Below are positions 7,341-64,000 of a stretch of 64,000 bases of DNA, piece by piece. Origin of the DNA: Aminipila luticellarii. GTDB taxonomy: Bacteria > Bacillota > Clostridia > Peptostreptococcales > Anaerovoracaceae. The notes under the pieces were generated by a model, which was not told where the DNA came from, did not search any database, and saw nothing but the letters and a program-made list of their open reading frames with translations. The number at the start of each line of letters is the position of its first letter. Position 1 is the stretch's first letter. Made by a program: the position numbers and the translations under genes. The DNA lies in contig NZ_CP035281.1 in NCBI RefSeq assembly GCF_004103735.1, forward strand, positions 372,001 to 436,000, read 5' to 3'.

Positions 7341-9764
7341 ATGACAGCTATAAACAGTATTGCGTCAACAGCAAGCACAACATCTACATATACGGCAAAG
7401 GGTTTTTCCGGTCTTGTCAGCGGTATGGATACGGAATCGGTCGTAGAAAGCATGACAGCGGATATACAGGCAAAAATTGATAAGGTAAAGCAGGAGCAGC
7501 AGAAGAACACCTGGAAGCAGGATGCTTACAGAACGGTGATCGCGTCTCTTATCAATTTTCAGGATAAGTATTTATCGTATTCATCACCGTCTACGAATTT
7601 ATTGAGCTCTGCTATATATAATTGCAGCAAAAAGACGTCACAGGGGGCAAATGCCAGTAAAATTTCTGTAACCAGTACGAGCAATTCAAACAATGCGGCA
7701 TATCAGGTATCCAGTGTGAAGTCTTTGGCCACAAAGGCCCGATATACCGGAGCCTGTGGATTGGGCAGCAATGAGATTTCTACCGGTAGTATTGATTTTG
7801 GAGACAGAACCGTCAATGTAGCCTCGGGTAAGGAGATGGAAATCACCTATAACAATGTGCGGTATAGCGTTACCATACCGGAGAACGGTACGACAGATTC
7901 TGATTTTCAGGCGTTATCCATGCAGTCAGCTCTCAATGAAGCTCTGCGGTCCGTCACTCTTGAGGACGGTTCCGGAACACTGGCAGAAAAGATCGGCTTT
8001 GATTTAAGCGGGGATACTCTGTCTCTTAAATCCCTGTACAGCGGAAGTACCAATACTTTCAGTATCAGCGGAGGGGATTCAGAAGCCTTGGCTGCTTTGG
8101 GATTTTCAGCAGGGCAGAGCGGGAGTGCGGCCAGCGCGATTGAGGGAACAAGTGCTGTAGATGTGGTGCAGACGAAGGCGTTTTCTTTGGAAGGCAAAAA
8201 GCTGACCTTTGATCTGGATGGCTTGAGCAAGACCATAAGCTTTGATGCCAGTGATTCCGCTGCCATTACGGGTGCCGGAGATGATGCGGCTAAGCTGCAA
8301 AAACTGGCAGAAACCATCAATTCTAAGCTGGCGGCTGCTTTTGGTGCAAATAAAATTGTGGCTGACGTGACAGATGGTACAAAAATCGGCTTTACGGTGA
8401 CGGATTCCACTTCCATTCTTAAGATTTCTTCTACCAGCTCAGACACCATAGGAAGCGGCAGTATCTTTGGCATGGAAAGCGGCATTACCAACCGGTTGAA
8501 CACCCACAAGACGTTGGCAGAGCTGGGATTTACACCGACCAGCAAGGATGCTTCCGATCCAGATAATACGAGTCTCTATGCCTACAAGATCACGGTGAAC
8601 GGCAAAGAATTTGAATTCAAGGGGGACGATGAAATCTCCACCGTTTTGAATAAAATAAACAACGACGAAACTGCAGGAATCAACATTACGTATTTGAGCA
8701 CTACCAATAAGTTCTCCATTGCGGCAGACCAATCCGGTTCCACAGGCAAAATTGATATACAGGACAGCACAGGCGGCGGAAACCTGGCTGCGGCCTTATT
8801 TGGTGATACGGCTGCAATCAGTGCAGGAACTGTAAAAGGTACGGATCTGGTGATGACCATTAAGTATGACGGAGATGCCAGTGAGACCACCCTTACGAGA
8901 AGTTCCAATTCGGTAACGGTAGACGGCATCAGCTTTAATGTGGAGGGAACCTTTGGATGGACTGGAGCAGAAGGTTCAGAAGTAAGAGATACCACGGCAG
9001 AAGCGGTCACCTTCAAGAATACTTCGGATACAGACAATGCAGTCAGCGTAATCAAACAGATGGTGGAGGATTATAACAAGATCATTGATTCCGTAAACGA
9101 ACTGGTCACCACCAAGAGCAGGGAAAGCACCAAGAACGGTCAGAACGTATATGAACCGCTTACGGACGCACAGAAAAAAGACATGACCAGTGAGGAAATC
9201 GAAGCGTGGGAAACGAAAGCAAAGGCAGGAATTTTGTTTGGAGACAGTACACTGACCCAGTTGGCTTCCAGCTTACGGTTTGCCTTTTCTTCCAAAGTCG
9301 GTGACTTGGGATTTGGAAAGGACATCGGTATAACCACCGCTTCTTCTTATTCCGGCAACGGAAAGCTGTCCATAGATGAGGATAAGCTGCGGGAAGCGCT
9401 GACGAACAATCCGGAAAAAGTGAAGGAAATGTTTGTTTCCTCTGCAGAGGATGCGCCAAATTCTGCCATGTCCAATTTGTCGGGCGGATTTGCGGTTCGA
9501 ATGCAGAACCTGTTCGAGTCCTATGCAAAGAGTACCGGCTCCTATAAAGGAAAGCTGGTTCAATTGGCAGGCCTCCAGAATAATACCACTACAAGCAATA
9601 ACTATATTGCAAGACAACAGAAAATATTAGATAATAAGCTGGAAACCCTTCAGACTCTGCTGGCTACCAGACAGGACCGATATCAAAGCCAGTTCACAAA
9701 ATTGGAACAATATATATCCCAAATGAACGCACAGAGCTCATGGCTTTCTTCCTCTATGTCATAA
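7341..9764 (+). CDS. fliD: Flagellar filament cap protein FliD (hook-associated protein 2)
   Basis: 807 residues. FliD caps the growing filament and helps flagellin fold. The N-terminal domain (about 20-115, starting GFSGLVSGMDTESVVESM) and the C-terminal domain (about 560-800, with VIKQMVEDYNKIIDSVNELV and the final coiled-coil segment ending in NAQSSWLSSSMS) are typical. The middle 300-400 residues are Ser/Thr/Ala-rich and variable, making the protein far longer than the roughly 500 residues of Bacillus FliD. AGGGAGGA precedes the ATG. fliS and a FliT-like gene follow on the same strand without a visible terminator. Confidence 0.92.
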   Translation: MTAINSIASTASTTSTYTAKGFSGLVSGMDTESVVESMTADIQAKIDKVKQEQQKNTWKQDAYRTVIASLINFQDKYLSYSSPSTNLLSSAIYNCSKKTSQGANASKISVTSTSNSNNAAYQVSSVKSLATKARYTGACGLGSNEISTGSIDFGDRTVNVASGKEMEITYNNVRYSVTIPENGTTDSDFQALSMQSALNEALRSVTLEDGSGTLAEKIGFDLSGDTLSLKSLYSGSTNTFSISGGDSEALAALGFSAGQSGSAASAIEGTSAVDVVQTKAFSLEGKKLTFDLDGLSKTISFDASDSAAITGAGDDAAKLQKLAETINSKLAAAFGANKIVADVTDGTKIGFTVTDSTSILKISSTSSDTIGSGSIFGMESGITNRLNTHKTLAELGFTPTSKDASDPDNTSLYAYKITVNGKEFEFKGDDEISTVLNKINNDETAGINITYLSTTNKFSIAADQSGSTGKIDIQDSTGGGNLAAALFGDTAAISAGTVKGTDLVMTIKYDGDASETTLTRSSNSVTVDGISFNVEGTFGWTGAEGSEVRDTTAEAVTFKNTSDTDNAVSVIKQMVEDYNKIIDSVNELVTTKSRESTKNGQNVYEPLTDAQKKDMTSEEIEAWETKAKAGILFGDSTLTQLASSLRFAFSSKVGDLGFGKDIGITTASSYSGNGKLSIDEDKLREALTNNPEKVKEMFVSSAEDAPNSAMSNLSGGFAVRMQNLFESYAKSTGSYKGKLVQLAGLQNNTTTSNNYIARQQKILDNKLETLQTLLATRQDRYQSQFTKLEQYISQMNAQSSWLSSSMS

Positions 9765-9843
9765 AATATAGACGCAGGGCATTATGCCGGTATGAAAAAG
9801 TGAACGCTGCAGACTACTTGAAAGAAAGGATGTTAATACTTTT

Positions 9844-10275
9844 ATGATGAATTATGGTTATCAGCAATATAAAACACAGGCCGTAGAGACCATGACAAAG
9901 GGCGAAATGCTTATCCTTCTATATGATGAAATCAATAAGCGGCTTCTGCGGGCAAGGGCATATTTTGAGAAAGAGGATATTGCGCTGTTTGAAGCAGACA
10001 TCCAGCGAGCTATTGATATTGTAAATTATCTTGAAAAAAGCCTTGACAGAAAGTATCCCATAAGTAATGATTTATATAGACTATATGATTTTATTACTTA
10101 TGAATTGACCAGAGTCAAAACCGGCAGAAATTTAGAGCTGATCGATGATATTACTCCTTTGATCAAGGATCTCAGAGAGAGCTTTAAGGAAGCAGACAGG
10201 CTCAGTAAGAAAGACCCAAGTGTCGGCGCCGGTATCGGAACGACGACCAGTAGTGTGACTCTGGGCGTAGGTTGA
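9844..10275 (+). CDS. fliS: Flagellar export chaperone FliS
   Basis: 143 residues. FliS binds flagellin in the cytoplasm and keeps it unfolded until export. The family signature is clear: a YGYQQYKTQAVETM start, GEMLILLYDEINKRLLRA in helix 1, and helical segments with NYLEKSLDRKYPISNDLYRL. The downstream gene starts inside its stop codon, so translation is coupled. The Shine-Dalgarno (AAAGGATG) is rather far from the ATG pair at 9844/9847. Confidence 0.9.
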   Translation: MMNYGYQQYKTQAVETMTKGEMLILLYDEINKRLLRARAYFEKEDIALFEADIQRAIDIVNYLEKSLDRKYPISNDLYRLYDFITYELTRVKTGRNLELIDDITPLIKDLRESFKEADRLSKKDPSVGAGIGTTTSSVTLGVG

Positions 10276-19625: not shown

Positions 19626-19775
19626 AGCTATCACTCCTTTCCGGAGAGTATTTTACCCACTTACGCAGAAAATATGTTATAATAACCTTCAACGAGCCTT
19701 CAAACGGGCTTAGGTTATTTCACCATAAATTACCATAGCAGGTTTACGGGCAAAAATGTTAAATGAAATTTATGG

Positions 19776-19822
19776 TATAATGAACTCCATCGATTGAATC
19801 AGCGTTGCTGCAAGGATTGCTA
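19776..19822 (+). repeat. Solo copy of the TATAATGAAC/GCGTTGC hairpin repeat
   Basis: TGGTATAATGAAC, then GATTGAA, then a CAGC-GTT-GCTG hairpin (19800-19810) and CAAGGATTGC. It aligns with the first half of the 79-bp tandem unit at the window's right end, where the hairpin is GCGGC-GTT-GCCGC; the stem bases differ in a compensated way. The TGGTATAAT also looks like an extended -10 promoter for the nucleoside kinase gene. Confidence 0.55.
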
Positions 19823-19831
19823 AAGGGGAAT

Positions 19832-21409
19832 ATGAAACTTATGGAAGTTATATTAAAAAACGGGCCAAGAGAGCCGGATTGTAAAATAGAAGTAAAGGAT
19901 ATCTGTACTATAGAAGCTATTGTGAAAGAGCTTCAGAGCAAATTACCATATGCTATTTTGGCGGCCCATGTAGATAACAAGATTGTTGAACTGACGCACA
20001 AAATAGATAAACCGTGCAAAATTGAACTGCTGGATATGAGAAACCAATCAGCCAATTTGATTTATCAAAACAGCTTATCTCTCATATATATGAAGGCCGT
20101 ATACGATGTGTTGGGCGATATTGTAGTAGAAATACAAAATTCCATTAATAAAGGCCTTTATACCATGATTCGGAGGAAAATGCCTGTAACGCAGGCCGAG
20201 GTTGACGGCATATATAAACGAATGCGTGAATTAGTAGATTTAGATATTCCGTATGTAAAAGAAGACTCGTGTTATTCTCTGGAAGGCTTTAAAAAGTTCT
20301 TTTTCGGGCTGATGGTGCCTTCTACCGGATATATAAAGCTTTTTGAAATCAGGAAATACAGAAGAGGCGTTCTGCTAAGGTTTCCGCATCCTAAGAACCC
20401 CAATGTAATCCCGGACTATGTGGATGAGGTGAAGCTGTACGGCGCTTTTGGAGAGGCCACCAACTGGGGAAAACTGATGGAGGTTTCGTATGCAAGGGAT
20501 TTGAATGCAAAGGTAAGAAACGGCGAATATGAAGAGCTTATACAGCTTTCAGAAGCCTTGCACGAGAAGAAGGTAGCGGAACTGGCAGATATTATAAAAA
20601 AGGAAAAGAAACGAATTGTTTTAATAGCAGGGCCCTCTTCGTCGGGAAAGACTACGTTTGCCAAACGGCTGCTGATCCAGTTAAAGGTCAACGGGCTAAA
20701 GCCGTTATATATGGGAACGGATGACTATTTCGTAGAAAGGGAGAACACCCCCCTTGACGAAAACGGTGAGCCTAATTTTGAGGACTTAGAAGCAATCGAT
20801 ATTGAGCTTTTCAATGCAAACATGAATTCTCTGCTGGCCGGTGAGGAAGTAGACCTGCCGACCTTTGACTTTATGGACGGCCATAAGAAGTTTGGAAAAC
20901 GGCTGACAAAGATCACGTCCGGACAGCCGATCATCATTGAAGGGATTCATGCCCTGAATCGGGAACTGACTGCATTAATACCCGACACCGAGAAATTTAA
21001 AATTTATATAAGTCCGTTGACTCAGCTAAACATAGATGAAAACAATCGAATTCCGACCACCGACGCACGTATGCTTAGGAGAATGGTGAGGGATTATAAT
21101 TTCAGAGGTCATTCTGCTAAAAATACGATTAATTCCTGGCCAAAGGTCAGAGCCGGAGAGGATAAAAACATCTTCCCTTTTAGCAACGAAGCGGATGCCT
21201 TTTTTAATTCCGTGCATTTATACGAAATTTCTGTGCTTAAAAAATATGCGGAACCGCTTCTCAAGGAGATTCAGCAGGAAGAGCCGGTATATAGCGAAGC
21301 ACAGCGTTTGTTAAAGATTTTAGATTTTTTTGAAGTGATTGAAGATGATTCCATTATTGCGAACAATTCAATATTGCGAGAATTTATTGGAGGAAGTATT
21401 TTAGTATGA
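19832..21409 (+). CDS. TGS-domain nucleoside kinase (uridine kinase/phosphoribulokinase family)
   Basis: 525 residues. An N-terminal TGS-like domain (about 1-65) and a threonyl-tRNA-synthetase-like second domain (about 70-180) precede a P-loop kinase (about 270-500) with Walker A LIAGPSSSGKTTFAKRL and the TDDYFVERENTPLD lid region typical of Udk-type kinases. This fused architecture is common in Clostridia; substrate is probably a ribonucleoside. The start at 19832 is chosen over an in-frame TTG (19805) that falls inside the repeat hairpin; AAAGGGGA sits only 3 bases before it, so ATG 19841 is an alternative. It overlaps the PfkB gene by 4 bases (ATGA). Confidence 0.87.
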   Translation: MKLMEVILKNGPREPDCKIEVKDICTIEAIVKELQSKLPYAILAAHVDNKIVELTHKIDKPCKIELLDMRNQSANLIYQNSLSLIYMKAVYDVLGDIVVEIQNSINKGLYTMIRRKMPVTQAEVDGIYKRMRELVDLDIPYVKEDSCYSLEGFKKFFFGLMVPSTGYIKLFEIRKYRRGVLLRFPHPKNPNVIPDYVDEVKLYGAFGEATNWGKLMEVSYARDLNAKVRNGEYEELIQLSEALHEKKVAELADIIKKEKKRIVLIAGPSSSGKTTFAKRLLIQLKVNGLKPLYMGTDDYFVERENTPLDENGEPNFEDLEAIDIELFNANMNSLLAGEEVDLPTFDFMDGHKKFGKRLTKITSGQPIIIEGIHALNRELTALIPDTEKFKIYISPLTQLNIDENNRIPTTDARMLRRMVRDYNFRGHSAKNTINSWPKVRAGEDKNIFPFSNEADAFFNSVHLYEISVLKKYAEPLLKEIQQEEPVYSEAQRLLKILDFFEVIEDDSIIANNSILREFIGGSILV

Positions 21410-26482: not shown

Positions 26483-27355
26483 ATGGGTCAGAAAGTAAGT
26501 CCACATGGTTTAAGAGTGGGCATTATAAAAGACTGGGATTCCAAATGGTATGCAGACAAGAACAATTTCGCTGATTTTCTTGTAGAAGACCAGAAGGTTC
26601 GAGAATATGTAAAGAAGAAGTTATATGTTGCAGGCGTTTCAAGAGTTTTAATCGAAAGAGCAGCAGCCGGTAAGATTAAAGTTATCGTGCTGACTGGTAA
26701 GCCGGGTATGGTAATCGGAAGAGCCGGAGACGGTATTGACGCTCTTAAGAAAGACATCGTTAAGATGACTGGCAAAGAGGTAGAAATCAGCATCGTAGAG
26801 ATCAGAAAGGTCGAAATGGATGCTCAGCTTACTGCTGAAAGCATTGCACAGGCACTGGAGAGAAGAATTTCTTTCCGAAGAGCCATGAAGCAGGCAATCG
26901 GAAGAACGATGAAATCCGGTGCAAAGGGTATTAAAGTTCTTTGTTCGGGAAGACTTGGCGGAGCTGAAATTGCCAGAAACGAAAAATACAGTGAAGGAAA
27001 TGTTCCTCTACACACCTTAAGAGCTGATATCGATTATGGTTTCGCTGAAGCGGATACTACGTACGGTAAGATCGGTGTAAAGGTTTGGATCAATCACGGT
27101 GAAATCCTTGATAAAGGATTAAAGAGCGCTGTTCCTGAAGAAAAAGAAGGCAGAAGAGACAGACGTGACGGGGACAGAAGAGGCAGAAGAGACAGAAACG
27201 ACGGAGACAGAAGACCTAGAAGAGACAGAGACGCTAAGCCTGAAGGTCCAAAAGCAGTAAACCCAAGAGTCAGAAAGTCTCCAAAAGTAGAAGCTGCCCC
27301 TGTAAGCGAAGCTGCTGCAGCTCCCGCTGAAGAAAACGTAGAAGTGACTGAATAA
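26483..27355 (+). CDS. rpsC: 30S ribosomal protein S3 with long C-terminal extension
   Basis: 290 residues. Residues 1-215 are a normal S3: [20 protein letters not shown], the KH-domain [15 protein letters not shown] and the C-domain with [13 protein letters not shown] and [10 protein letters not shown]. Residues 216-290 are an unusual tail: first Arg/Asp-rich near-repeats ([20 protein letters not shown], 223-242), then a Pro/Ala/Glu stretch ending in acidic residues. S3 is usually 210-225 residues. S3 forms the mRNA entry pore, so a charged flexible tail might contact mRNA (inference). An 83-base gap follows before rplP. Confidence 0.95.
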
Positions 27356-29074: not shown

Positions 29075-29617
29075 TTGACAGCTAGACTAAAAGAAACTTA
29101 TAAAAACGAAATATTTAAGGCTATGATGGATAAGCATGGTTATAAGAATGTGATGGAAGTTCCTGTACTTGAAAAGATCACCCTTAACATGGGTCTTGGC
29201 GAAGCAAAAGAAAACGCTAAAATTATGGAAACTGCTGTTGAAGAATTAGCAATCATCAGTGGTCAGAGACCAGTCATCACAAAATCAAAGAAATCTATCG
29301 CAAACTTCAAGGTTAGACAGGGTATGCCTGTTGGAGCAAAAGTTACTCTGAGAGGAGATAACATGTTTGAGTTTGCTGACAAGCTATTTAACATCGCTCT
29401 TCCAAGAGTAAGAGACTTCAAGGGAGTAAGCAAAAACTCTTTTGACGGAAGAGGAAACTATTCCATGGGTATCAAGGAACAGTTGATCTTCCCTGAAATA
29501 GAGTACGATAAGATTGATAAGATCAAGGGCATGAACATTGTATTTACTACAACGGCTAAGACAGATGAAGAAGCTGCTTCATTATTGCAGTTACTTGGAC
29601 TGCCGTTTGAGAAATAG
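29075..29617 (+). CDS. rplE: 50S ribosomal protein L5
   Basis: 180 residues. [20 protein letters not shown] and [20 protein letters not shown] identify L5, which binds 5S rRNA. The start codon is TTG; AAAGGAGGA lies 7 bases upstream and no better ATG fits. It is followed by an 87-base insert with hairpins before rpsN. Confidence 0.95.
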
Positions 29618-29634
29618 AAAAATTAAGAGTGAGA

Positions 29635-29690
29635 CGGCGTTGCCGCAAGGAAGTTTTTATATAATTTCCTCGACTTCGCTCGGAAATTAT
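29635..29690 (+). repeat. Hairpin insert between rplE and rpsN
   Basis: Two stem-loops: CGGC-GTT-GCCG (29635-29645) followed by CAAGGAAG, and ATAATTTCC/GGAAATTAT (29661-29669 with 29682-29690). The first hairpin and its CAAGGAAG flank match the repeat family at 19800 and 63599. The second would not terminate because no T run follows; the rpsN Shine-Dalgarno comes 4 bases later. Confidence 0.5.
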
Positions 29691-29704
29691 AGTAGGAGGT
29701 TAAG

Positions 29705-62311: not shown

Positions 62312-63445
62312 CTAATTAATATGTGCAAGCATTTTGTAATATTCGTAGCCTGACAGTAAAATTTCTTCGTCAAAGTCAAAGTTATTGCTGTGAAGAGGAA
62401 TTTTAGTTCCGGTTCCCAATAGGGCGAAAACCGCAGGAGCTTTTGTTCCGTAGTAGGAAAAATCTTCCGAAATCATGACGGCTTCGGGAAGCTCTTTATA
62501 ATAGCTGAGTTTTTCCAAATAAGGCTTGATGGATTGGTAAAGCTCCATATCGTTTATGACCGGAAGGTAACCGTCCGAACAATCCACCCTGATCTGACAA
62601 CCGTATTGCGTTTCATATTCATTAGCAATTTCATGCAGGCGAGCTTCCATAAAATCAAAGGTCTTCAATTTAAATGCCCGCATCGTACCCAAAAGGGAAG
62701 CCTTTCCGGCAATGACATTCCGCGCGGAGCCGCTGTTCAATCGGCATATTTTTAACAGCGTCCGTTCATCCGCAGGCGTTTCAGTCTGCTGCATGGTGTA
62801 TACATCCGATATATACTGTGTGGCAACATAAAGTGCGTCAATCCCTTTTTGGGATGTGGCAGCATGAGTGCTTTTTCCTTTTATTTCGATGTTTACTTCG
62901 GAGGATTTTGGCATAAGAGGACCGCCCTTTGTTGAGACTTGTCCTTTTGGAATGTTTGGCCACAAATGCAGTCCGAAGGTTCTGATCACGTGATATTTTT
63001 CAAAAATACCAGATTCCGCAATGGGTCTTGCCCCTCCGGTGGTTTCCTCTGCCGGTTGAAATATAAGCAATATGTTATAGGGCAAAGGGTCCGTATGATT
63101 TACATATTCTGCAAAACCAAGCAGCATGGACATGTGGGCATCGTGACCGCAGCCGTGCATTTTGCCGGGATGCTCCGAAACAAAACCGTGCGTATTGGTT
63201 TCGGGAATAGTCAGCCCATCCATATCACTTCTATAGGCAATCGTGGATTCTTTTCCTTTATTAAAAAAGGCACAAATCCCTGTGTTTACTACTGTCGTAA
63301 ATTCACAGCTCATGCCGCCCATTATGTTCATAATATATTCTCTGGTTTCAAATAATTGATCGCCGATTTCCGGAATTTTGTGAAGTGAACGGTGGTGCTG
63401 AATCAAAGTATTGAGCATGTTATGATCGTCAAATTCAACAGCCAT
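62312..63445 (-). CDS. M20D-family amidohydrolase
   Basis: 377 residues. GMHGCGHDAHMSMLLGFAEY, QPAEETTGGARPIAESGIF and GKSTHAATSQKGIDALYVAT are the metal, catalytic Glu and dimerisation motifs of HipO-like amidohydrolases that deacylate N-acyl amino acids. Distinct from the AbgB-like enzyme at 49819, so the window has two M20 branches. The ATG at 63445 follows AGGAG at about 10 bases. Its promoter is strong; terminator at 62232. Confidence 0.9.
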   Translation of the reverse strand: MAVEFDDHNMLNTLIQHHRSLHKIPEIGDQLFETREYIMNIMGGMSCEFTTVVNTGICAFFNKGKESTIAYRSDMDGLTIPETNTHGFVSEHPGKMHGCGHDAHMSMLLGFAEYVNHTDPLPYNILLIFQPAEETTGGARPIAESGIFEKYHVIRTFGLHLWPNIPKGQVSTKGGPLMPKSSEVNIEIKGKSTHAATSQKGIDALYVATQYISDVYTMQQTETPADERTLLKICRLNSGSARNVIAGKASLLGTMRAFKLKTFDFMEARLHEIANEYETQYGCQIRVDCSDGYLPVINDMELYQSIKPYLEKLSYYKELPEAVMISEDFSYYGTKAPAVFALLGTGTKIPLHSNNFDFDEEILLSGYEYYKMLAHIN

Positions 63446-63505
63446 TATCTTGTATCTCCTAAAATTATTGATGGCCGGATAAGTGCCATACACAAATTAT
63501 CAATT

Positions 63506-63534
63506 ATGATACAACTTTTATGTTCTTATGTCAA
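63506..63534 (-). promoter_or_regulatory. SigA promoter for the M20 gene
   Basis: Minus strand perfect TTGACA, 17-base spacer, TATCAT. Confidence 0.75.
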
Positions 63535-63598
63535 ATAAAATCAATAATATTTGTATTTTGTAATATTATTGCAACATAAAAACTTCACAAAGCTATGT

Positions 63599-63870
63599 TA
63601 TAATGAACGCAGTGATTTGAGGCGGCGTTGCCGCAGGGAAGCGTTCATTGAATCACACGGCGACGAGGCTTGTGTGGTATAATGAACCGAATGATTTGAA
63701 GCGGCGTTGCCGCAGGGAAGCGTTCATTGAATCACACGGCGACGAGGCTTGTGTGGTATAATGAACCGAATGATTTGAAGCGGCGTTGCCGCAGGGAAGC
63801 GTTCATTGAATCGCACGGCGACGAGGCTTGTGTGGTATAATGAACCGAATGATTTGAAGCGGCGTTGCCG
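63599..63870 (+). repeat. 79-bp tandem repeat array (three full units plus a partial)
   Basis: Units start at 63599, 63678 and 63757, each exactly 79 bp; a partial fourth starts at 63836. Each begins TATAATGAAC (preceded by TGT or TGG), holds a GCGGC-GTT-GCCGC hairpin inside AATGAAC/GTTCATT arms, then a CACAC/GTGTG stem around GGCGACGAGGCT. Units 2 and 3 differ at one base (CACAC to CGCAC), which still pairs as G-T. Unit 1 extends the arm to 9 bp (AATGAACGC/GCGTTCATT). Confidence 0.85.
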
Positions 63871-63909
63871 TATCATTGATATAAATTAGACGAATGGGGA
63901 GTTTTTAAT

Positions 63910-64000
63910 ATGCTGGGCTATGTGGTTCCTGATAAGGGAGAGCTGAAAATGCGAGAATATGAAGTATACAGCTCTTACTATTGCGGGATGTGCAAAAGTA
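63910..64000 (+). CDS. DUF5685 family protein, 3' truncated by window
   Basis: Only the first 30 residues are in the window: MLGYVVPDKGELKMREYEVY then SSYYCGMCKS. The GY-PDK-ELK-REYE-YCG-C pattern is characteristic of DUF5685, a cytoplasmic family with unknown function. GGGGAG lies 8 bases before the ATG. The gene continues to the right. Confidence 0.8.
   Translation, partial: MLGYVVPDKGELKMREYEVYSSYYCGMCKS

Follow-up and report, generated by a model that had tools for sequence, protein, structure and literature searches.

A small hairpin-bearing repeat of the Anaerovoracaceae that is probably mobile and appears to enter and regenerate promoter −10 boxes

INTRODUCTION

A 79-bp sequence repeated in tandem lies directly upstream of a DUF5685 gene in the genome of Aminipila luticellarii (assembly GCF_004103735.1, contig NZ_CP035281.1). 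It was found in a stretch of 64,000 nucleotides (positions 372,001 to 436,000 of the forward strand) that we call the window, and that is numbered here from its first nucleotide. Each unit carries hairpins and the sequence TGnTATAAT, and an initial annotation made from the sequence alone suggested that the array might be a set of promoters, a structured RNA repeat or a small mobile element. Which of these is it, and how does it come to lie in front of this gene? We conclude that the array is probably a stack of a small, non-autonomous mobile repeat of the Anaerovoracaceae that enters and regenerates −10 boxes.

RESULTS

The array in the window

Tandem Repeats Finder places the array at 63599-63870, with a period of 79, 3.4 copies, 97% matches, 0% indels and a score of 509; the runner-up among the six rows for the window scores 116. 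A separate 33-bp tandem repeat (2.6 copies) is located at 27148-27233. The array comprises three 79-bp units placed head-to-tail, each ending in TGnTATAAT, and a fourth that stops at 63870 (Table 1). TATAAT is read at 63599-63604, 63678-63683, 63757-63762 and 63836-63841, preceded by TGn in all four cases. In unit 1 the outer arm of hairpin 1 has 9 bp, AATGAACGC being paired with GCGTTCATT, while GAACCG in units 2 and 3 reduces this to 7 bp. In hairpin 2 of unit 3 CACAC is replaced by CGCAC, so that pairing with GTGTG is kept with one pair as G.T. The 3′ arm of hairpin 2 overlaps into the next extended −10. The details given in the initial annotation hold, among them the outer arm of 9 or 7 bp and the location before the DUF5685 gene, the ATG of which is 68 nt beyond the end of the last TATAAT of the array. 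The gene on the other side of the array is divergent.

Table 1. Location of the array, its parts and related sequences within the window
Feature	Position	Strand	Basis and remarks
Extended −10 left of array, TATGT-TATAAT	63594..63604	+	sequence; covariance-model match begins 63596
Unit 1, 79 bp, TATAAT-terminated	63605..63683	+	Tandem Repeats Finder; model R1, 108.2 bits
Hairpin 1 of unit 1	63602..63649	+	outer arms 63602-63610 / 63641-63649; fold; outer-arm covariation across copies
Inner stem of hairpin 1, unit 1, GCGGC-GTT-GCCGC	63622-63634	+	
Hairpin 2 of unit 1	63652..63678	+	arms ATCACAC 63652-63658 and GTGTGGT 63672-63678; fold; covariation
Unit 2	63684..63762	+	outer arm of hairpin 1 shortened (GAACCG); Tandem Repeats Finder; R1 genome search, 101.9 bits
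Unit 3	63763..63841	+	as unit 2 except CGCAC in hairpin 2; sequence; R1, 98.7 bits
Truncated unit 4	63842..63870	+	breaks off within inner stem; sequence; Tandem Repeats Finder
Start of DUF5685 gene (ATG 63910)	63910..64000	+	Pfam PF18937, E 1.6e-87; extends beyond window; 297 aa in genome
Diverged copy	29610..29693	+	between L5 and S14 ribosomal protein genes; R1, 40.5 bits, E 8.3e-6 in genome
Probable remnant, weak	19773..19859	+	TGGTATAATGAACTCC and half of hairpin 1; R1, 18.7 bits, E 0.039 in window

The units adjoin head-to-tail without spacers, and a CRISPR array was rejected. A coding repeat was likewise rejected, as 79 is not a multiple of three and the loop lengths of the copies differ by single bases; on both points we agree with the initial annotation. 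In many units AGGGAAG or AAGGAAG is followed by TTG (e.g. at 63635-63650), which looks like a ribosome site with a start codon, but the indels in the loop disfavor a conserved peptide beginning there. An assembly artefact is unlikely, because other assemblies (both single-contig and draft) hold dispersed and tandem copies.

Structure and covariation of the hairpins

The predicted RNA folds of the + strand of units 1 and 2 are better than those of shuffled sequences (z = −2.8 and −2.2), and those of the − strand are weaker (z = −1.9 and −1.2). Twenty-four complete units were aligned, and 22 were kept for covariance model R1; the two omitted, from genome G031, have a second hairpin that is built differently. 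In alignment A2 94.5% of the cells of the named structure pair, compared with at most 51% when the partners are slid. Doubly changed cells number 45 in A2 against 17 in shuffles, the count of pair types not being above that of the shuffles. In a larger set of 121 matches (109 distinct) there are 237 such cells against 84, in an alignment that was made to the covariance model and is biased towards it. Both hairpins covary. The arms are variable (GAACGC, GATTCC, GAATGC, GGTTCC and others), mostly with a matching complement, and the inner hairpin, AAGGAA and the hexamers are mostly constant among the copies. Within the host genus AAGGAA and the inner hairpin are strongly conserved in primary sequence; loop lengths differ from genus to genus.

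In an RNA helix an excess of G.T mismatches is expected. Hairpin 2 has this excess, with 32 G.T against 16 A.C in sets A3 and A5, leaving out a pair that is commonly T.G. The outer arm of hairpin 1 does not, with 31 G.T against 37 A.C in the same model-fitted sets, and 50 against 64 when A4 is added. Judged by the spacing, hairpin 1 would have its outer 5′ arm at approximately −6 to −1 of the unit's own promoter. The usual distance from −10 box to start would place initiation at the A following GAACGC, so that this arm would be absent from RNA made from that promoter.

Copies in the host genome and in related bacteria

The host genome (2,750,839 bases in one contig) contains 22 blastn matches to the array, the array itself included, so that this is not a chance sequence. 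The covariance model finds 35 matches at E ≤1, 28 of them with E <1e-5, at 23 places; the unit is dispersed through the genome. One diverged copy sits within the ribosomal protein operon in the window (L5 and S14 being identified by Pfam). It retains the core ACGGCGTTGCCGCAAGGAAG and a terminal TATAGT, the arms differ and the left TATAAT is unrecognisable. The probable remnant is directly 5′ of a 534-aa ORF, and is apparently an eroded copy in which the promoter box is still present.

Matches to the covariance model at E ≤0.001 were found in 23 of 148 genomes of the same GTDB family, host included; at most 29 candidates were scored in each genome, and the copy numbers are lower limits. In a sample drawn across the order 32 of 297 genomes were positive, all 32 in the host's family, and blastn found no match in 24 sampled genomes belonging to the order's other families. 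When GTDB genomes were scanned for a pattern of the repeat, 50 stretches came up, from organisms that include Emergencia timonensis, Sinanaerobacter chloroacetimidivorans, Anaerovorax odorimutans SL.3.17 and Clostridium aminobutyricum. In the NCBI taxonomy the first two are Anaerovoracaceae and C. aminobutyricum belongs to the Clostridiaceae. The repeat is absent from the phage and plasmid records searched and its exact core pattern from viral contigs (0 found), and an origin from phage, plasmid or virus was rejected.

E. timonensis has many arrays, of up to six units each. At L168:13310-13751 two subtypes of unit alternate in the order A-B-A-B-A, which suggests that different units inserted serially and that the pair was then duplicated. 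Elsewhere in this genome two arrays (L171:9078-9176 on the − strand and 9658-9847 on the + strand) are divergent, and approximately 480 bp apart.

None of 4227 Rfam families matched at the gathering score in window positions 63400-64000 and seven further loci, and no description of the repeat was found in the open-licence PMC literature, judged by titles and the openings of abstracts. This family of repeats is apparently undescribed in the collections and literature searched.

Filled and empty sites in Emergencia

Fourteen arrays of E. timonensis (G380) were compared with Emergencia sp. SUG182 (G377) and 1XD21-10 (G376). Both relatives lack the three units found at L089, and their flanks there are contiguous. 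The relatives have an uninterrupted TGTGATATACT in place of TGTGATATAAT-(three units)-GGTATACT in E. timonensis, the edges being TGTGATATAAT|GAACGC on the left and TCATGGTATACT|AGC on the right. At greater length the filled site reads AATATGTGATATAAT|GAACGC ... GTCATGGTATACT|AGCAGTTGAAAGG, and the empty sites of the two relatives AATCTGTGATATACTATTAGCTGAAAGG and AATCTGTGATATACTAATAGCTGAAAGG. The hexamer of the relatives is TATACT; in E. timonensis the C is found at the right end, and the left end is TATAAT. Barring a point mutation, the break is therefore best placed within the hexamer, i.e. TATA|CT, with a duplication of at most TATA; the same pattern would arise if either hexamer had undergone point mutation. 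At L263 CTGTTATAATACCG in the relatives corresponds to TGTTATAAT-unit-TGTTATAATAAAG, so that the relatives have one TGTTATAAT and E. timonensis has two with a single unit between them. At L270 TTGTAA-18-TATAAT is common to the species, the unit follows directly, and the right hexamer is decayed. In these pairs TATA (or TA) flanks both sides, and a target duplication would be indistinguishable from sequence of the element.

These are the three clear junctions among the 14 arrays, and thus all resolved junctions come from one species. For four others (L168:13310, L261, L267 and L169:8857) both relatives have the same gene but no array before it, and the junction is unclear. The array L169:14733 occurs in each of the three species; its upstream flank, including TATGn-TATAAT, is common to them, and its interior is changed or partly deleted. 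That flank has TTGTCA/TTGACA at 29 bp, and therefore lacks the usual −35. Six are uninformative, namely L058 (no synteny), L262, L260, the 7067 array of L168 and two of L265, one of the latter lying inside a stretch found only in E. timonensis, before a gene that reads as mutS. Two contigs from the relatives (177 and 169 kb) contain no covariance-model match at E ≤0.01. Apparent insertion in a −10 hexamer is seen at three sites, and is supported by the 107 flanks analysed below. The dispersal of the repeat, together with the filled and empty sites, supports the mobile element among the possibilities initially raised.

By analogy with L089, we read the extended −10 left of the array in the window as that of the promoter into which the array inserted, with host-derived sequence continuing to about 63602. 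The first TATAAT of the array is then probably the host's own promoter box, which was invisible to the initial annotation. We note that the sequence at a spacing of 17 bp in this flank, ATAAAA, is not a good −35.

Promoter signals and placement before genes

A total of 134 left-edge copies were collected, of which 27 were set aside where a pattern flagged a preceding remnant of another unit. TG precedes the left hexamer in 84 of the remaining 107 flanks, and TRTG in 65. A −35 sequence (at least four of six matches) is found at exactly 17 bp in 21 of the 107, compared with 4.6% at other spacings (p = 1.6e-8). Removal of five doubtful or orthologous rows leaves 21 of 102; these were L087 (remnant visible), L013:1761 and L003:2396 (maybe chance), and one each of L014/L109 and L007/L039, pairs in which the flanks are shared by descent. 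The signal weakens if any spacing of 16-18 bp is accepted: 33 of the 107 flanks then qualify, and the 16 control triples range from 9 to 26. The DNA left of the first units thus looks like a host sigma-A promoter, with TGn, TATAAT and a −35 at 17 bp. The right-end hexamers (108) are more variable than those of the left end (173) at five of six positions. Since this variability is not confined to the last two positions it does not locate the break; it fits decay or host sequence.

A crude ORF-based test of the 121 matches, in which some copies present in two loci are counted twice, placed the downstream gene on the same strand in 101, the opposite strand in 10 and saw none in 10; the corresponding numbers for the upstream gene were 61, 56 and 4. 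A stricter test used 171 distinct arrays, 124 with one recognised unit. Among the 157 with 400 nt on each side, a gene start (i.e. a start codon with a ribosome site) lies within 200 nt in the promoter direction in 123 and in the other direction in 52, 41 having both. On the side that the promoter faces, the start lies at a median distance of 54 nt. Pfam was used to identify eight of the downstream genes, and these are unrelated to one another. They encode a Crp-type regulator, MntP, an iron alcohol dehydrogenase, a PF10112 protein, QueH, a PF02504 fatty acid synthesis protein (presumably PlsX), an AA-kinase (which we take to be PyrH) and RuvC. The copies thus carry putative promoter boxes ahead of many genes. 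The suggestion of a promoter array gains from the extended −10 boxes, the placement and the orientation, all of which are evidence at the level of sequence.

Copies before the same gene

When downstream proteins were grouped by blastp identity of at least 50%, disregarding matches through regulator domains, 13 groups had the repeat before their genes in two or more genomes. Copies are thus found before related genes in different genera, pyrH in four of them. At some of these (L022/L027 and L014/L109) the flanking promoter is conserved too. In all 15 same-gene pairs compared, five of which involve pyrH, the same-gene copy is less similar than the closest copy from the same genome; this comparison is biased, as it takes the best of many. 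Against the average copy of the same genome the same-gene copy is closer in four pairs, equal in one and farther in 10. Either the copies have been replaced, or the site has been reused, or the arms evolve fast in pairs. Compensatory evolution in place was rejected as a conclusion from these copies, being inseparable from replacement by other copies. The recurrence before the same genes could mean long persistence for a function.

The search for a mover

A Y1 transposase was first suspected because IS200/IS605 elements, as outlined in PMC6006769, use hairpins and a fixed short target. The single-contig host genome (98.3% complete) has no match to PF01797, the Y1 transposase family. PF01797 is found in 7 of 23 carriers of the repeat and 54 of 125 non-carriers (Fisher p = 0.36, assuming that the two draws of the family are the same 148 genomes), and the 16 carriers without it include the many-copy genomes G149 and G093. 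With none in the host and no enrichment in the carriers, a Y1 transposase as the mover finds no support. No gene-bearing version of the repeat was found in 241 loci (1.05 Mb) using models of each half. Of 354 matches to the hairpin 1 half-model, 98 have an adjacent hairpin 2 and 246 are not followed by a hairpin 2 on their strand within the locus; in the other 10 it lies 75-137 bp away, which is too close for a gene. This test is weak because the hairpin 2 half-model recognises mainly the host genus and misses most other genera (119 matches against the 354).

DISCUSSION

We consider it likely that the array is built from a non-autonomous mobile repeat. The element would be approximately 80-110 bp in length and protein-free. 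A sigma-A promoter already present would receive the copy at TATA|NT of its −10 hexamer, in a single orientation; the left end of the copy would bring AT-GAACGC... and the right end the copy's own TRTGn-TATA. The ends would restore the hexamers, so that the host promoter would keep its −10 box at the old place and a second extended −10 would face the gene. As the right end is again a target, head-to-tail stacking becomes possible. The hexamers on both sides, the empty sites and the stacking are visible in the sequences. An array may also grow by duplication, since the altered arm is common to units 2 and 3 in the window. Folded DNA with its hairpins paired would be required while a trans-acting recombinase moves the element, and both −10 boxes would act as promoters.

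A specific but rather doubtful elaboration is that the folded DNA integrates, via a circle and by means of a non-Y1 recombinase, into active promoters where their −10 region is melted. In the open RNA polymerase complex TATAAT of the non-template strand would be single-stranded and available as the target; the constancy of position and of orientation, and the presence of hairpins, would then have a common explanation. The joint of the circle would be hairpin 2-TATAAT-hairpin 1, and the rebuilt −10 box would permit both spreading without silencing of genes and stacking at the same site.

If the hairpins functioned instead in the mRNA of the downstream genes, as cis-regulatory or stabilising leaders kept by selection gene by gene, this would account for the co-direction of copies and genes, the better fold of the + strand, the covariation, the presence before related genes in different genera, the G.T excess in hairpin 2 (32 against 16), and the strong conservation of the inner hairpin and AAGGAA in the host genus. 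Yet a copy with a single unit would leave the 5′ arm of hairpin 1 (about −6 to −1) untranscribed, hairpin 1 lacks the G.T excess, its outer arm is shortened in units 2 and 3 of the window, the eight downstream genes checked are unrelated and Rfam gave no match. Moreover, the closest copy in the same genome exceeds the same-gene copy in similarity in 15 of 15 pairs (by the biased comparison), and the average one does so in 10 of 15 with one tie. We therefore regard a leader RNA as unlikely, and the initial suggestion of a structured RNA repeat is weakened, with hairpin 2 leaning towards it. That the repeat is instead a promoter sequence which ordinary recombination copies and selection retains, with no dedicated transposition, seems to us quite improbable. 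It has extended −10 boxes ahead of many genes, and the concept of such a 'mobile promoter' is reportedly in print (Matus-Garcia 2012, van Passel 2014), but recombination requires neither junctions at one hexamer between unrelated flanks nor hairpins that covary.

Two readings invoke known kinds of transposition. An IS630-kind MITE with duplication of a TA target, its placement and orientation resulting from selection after random insertion at TA, would be compatible with the junctions, which allow duplication of 2 bp (TA) or 4 bp (TATA). TA is used by known bacterial MITEs, as summarised in PMC2229807, and promoters can arise from Correia elements according to the account in PMC2649163. Nevertheless the resolved junctions are at a −10 box and not at any TA, terminal inverted repeats are absent by inspection, and the conserved hairpins are internal, all of which makes this reading improbable. 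A REP/REPIN or IS200/IS605-derived element, moved as folded single strands by a Y1 (HUH) transposase, would agree with a short two-hairpin repeat that is inserted in a set orientation at a short, fixed sequence with no clear target duplication (as these systems are outlined in PMC6006769). PF01797 is missing from the host genome and from 16 of 23 carriers, and GT[AG]G at the foot of a hairpin was not seen by inspection. This reading is thus already weakened, and we judge it very unlikely; one possible form of it would involve a HUH enzyme too diverged to reach the Pfam threshold.

Insertions into promoters usually damage them. If the mobile repeat behaves as we propose, entry into the −10 hexamer and its restoration would allow a compact genome to harbour mobile DNA without silencing of genes, and the repeat would be a natural source of tandem promoters and altered gene expression in these Clostridia. 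What is unusual is the use of the −10 hexamer as the target, together with its regeneration. Movement as hairpin DNA, promoter activity and any effect on genes are our inferences. Copies are abundant in cultured species such as E. timonensis, making direct testing feasible. There is also a warning for annotation, in that many 'promoters' and 'hairpin leaders' in Anaerovoracaceae may be copies of one repeat.

Comparison with known systems

The repeat resembles MITEs and mobile promoters, but we have not filed it under any named family because it has neither inverted ends nor a known transposase. Like bacterial MITEs such as Correia/CREE and RUP it is short, protein-free, non-coding and intergenic with many dispersed copies; some of those elements give promoters and TA ends are possible. 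It differs from them in lacking terminal inverted repeats (by inspection TATAATGAACGC at one end is no inverted copy of TCATGG/GTGTGG-TATAAT at the other), in having internal covarying hairpins, in its resolved junctions within the −10 hexamer in one orientation, and in stacking at a regenerated site. BrickBuilt of Porphyromonas gingivalis is also MITE-like and intergenic and contains tandem repeats, and the account in PMC4596501 gives it promoter activity in reporter assays. It has 23-nt repeats within a longer element, terminal inverted repeats and bidirectional promoters, and as far as that account describes it there is no link to a −10 box.

REP/REPIN sequences with TnpA-REP (RAYT) are likewise repeats that form hairpins and occur between genes in many copies, at times in clusters. 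REP sequences are defined, in the outline given by PMC6006769, by a GT[AG]G tetranucleotide at the 5′ foot of the hairpin, and this is absent from our alignment A1 by inspection. The present repeat is a longer unit of two hairpins placed upstream of genes, in a host genome that has no Y1 match. With IS200/IS605 elements and their short derivatives it shares hairpins, an orientation set by the target and no clear duplication; it differs in that no transposase gene is seen in its copies, and the Y1 family is unlinked to the carriers.

At the level of sequence the repeat can also be set beside mobile promoters, as it is promoter-like and lies before unrelated genes. Those are said to be promoter-bearing repeats found before unrelated genes. 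The repeat described here differs from them in having a target, the −10 box, with some junctions resolved, and in being structured.
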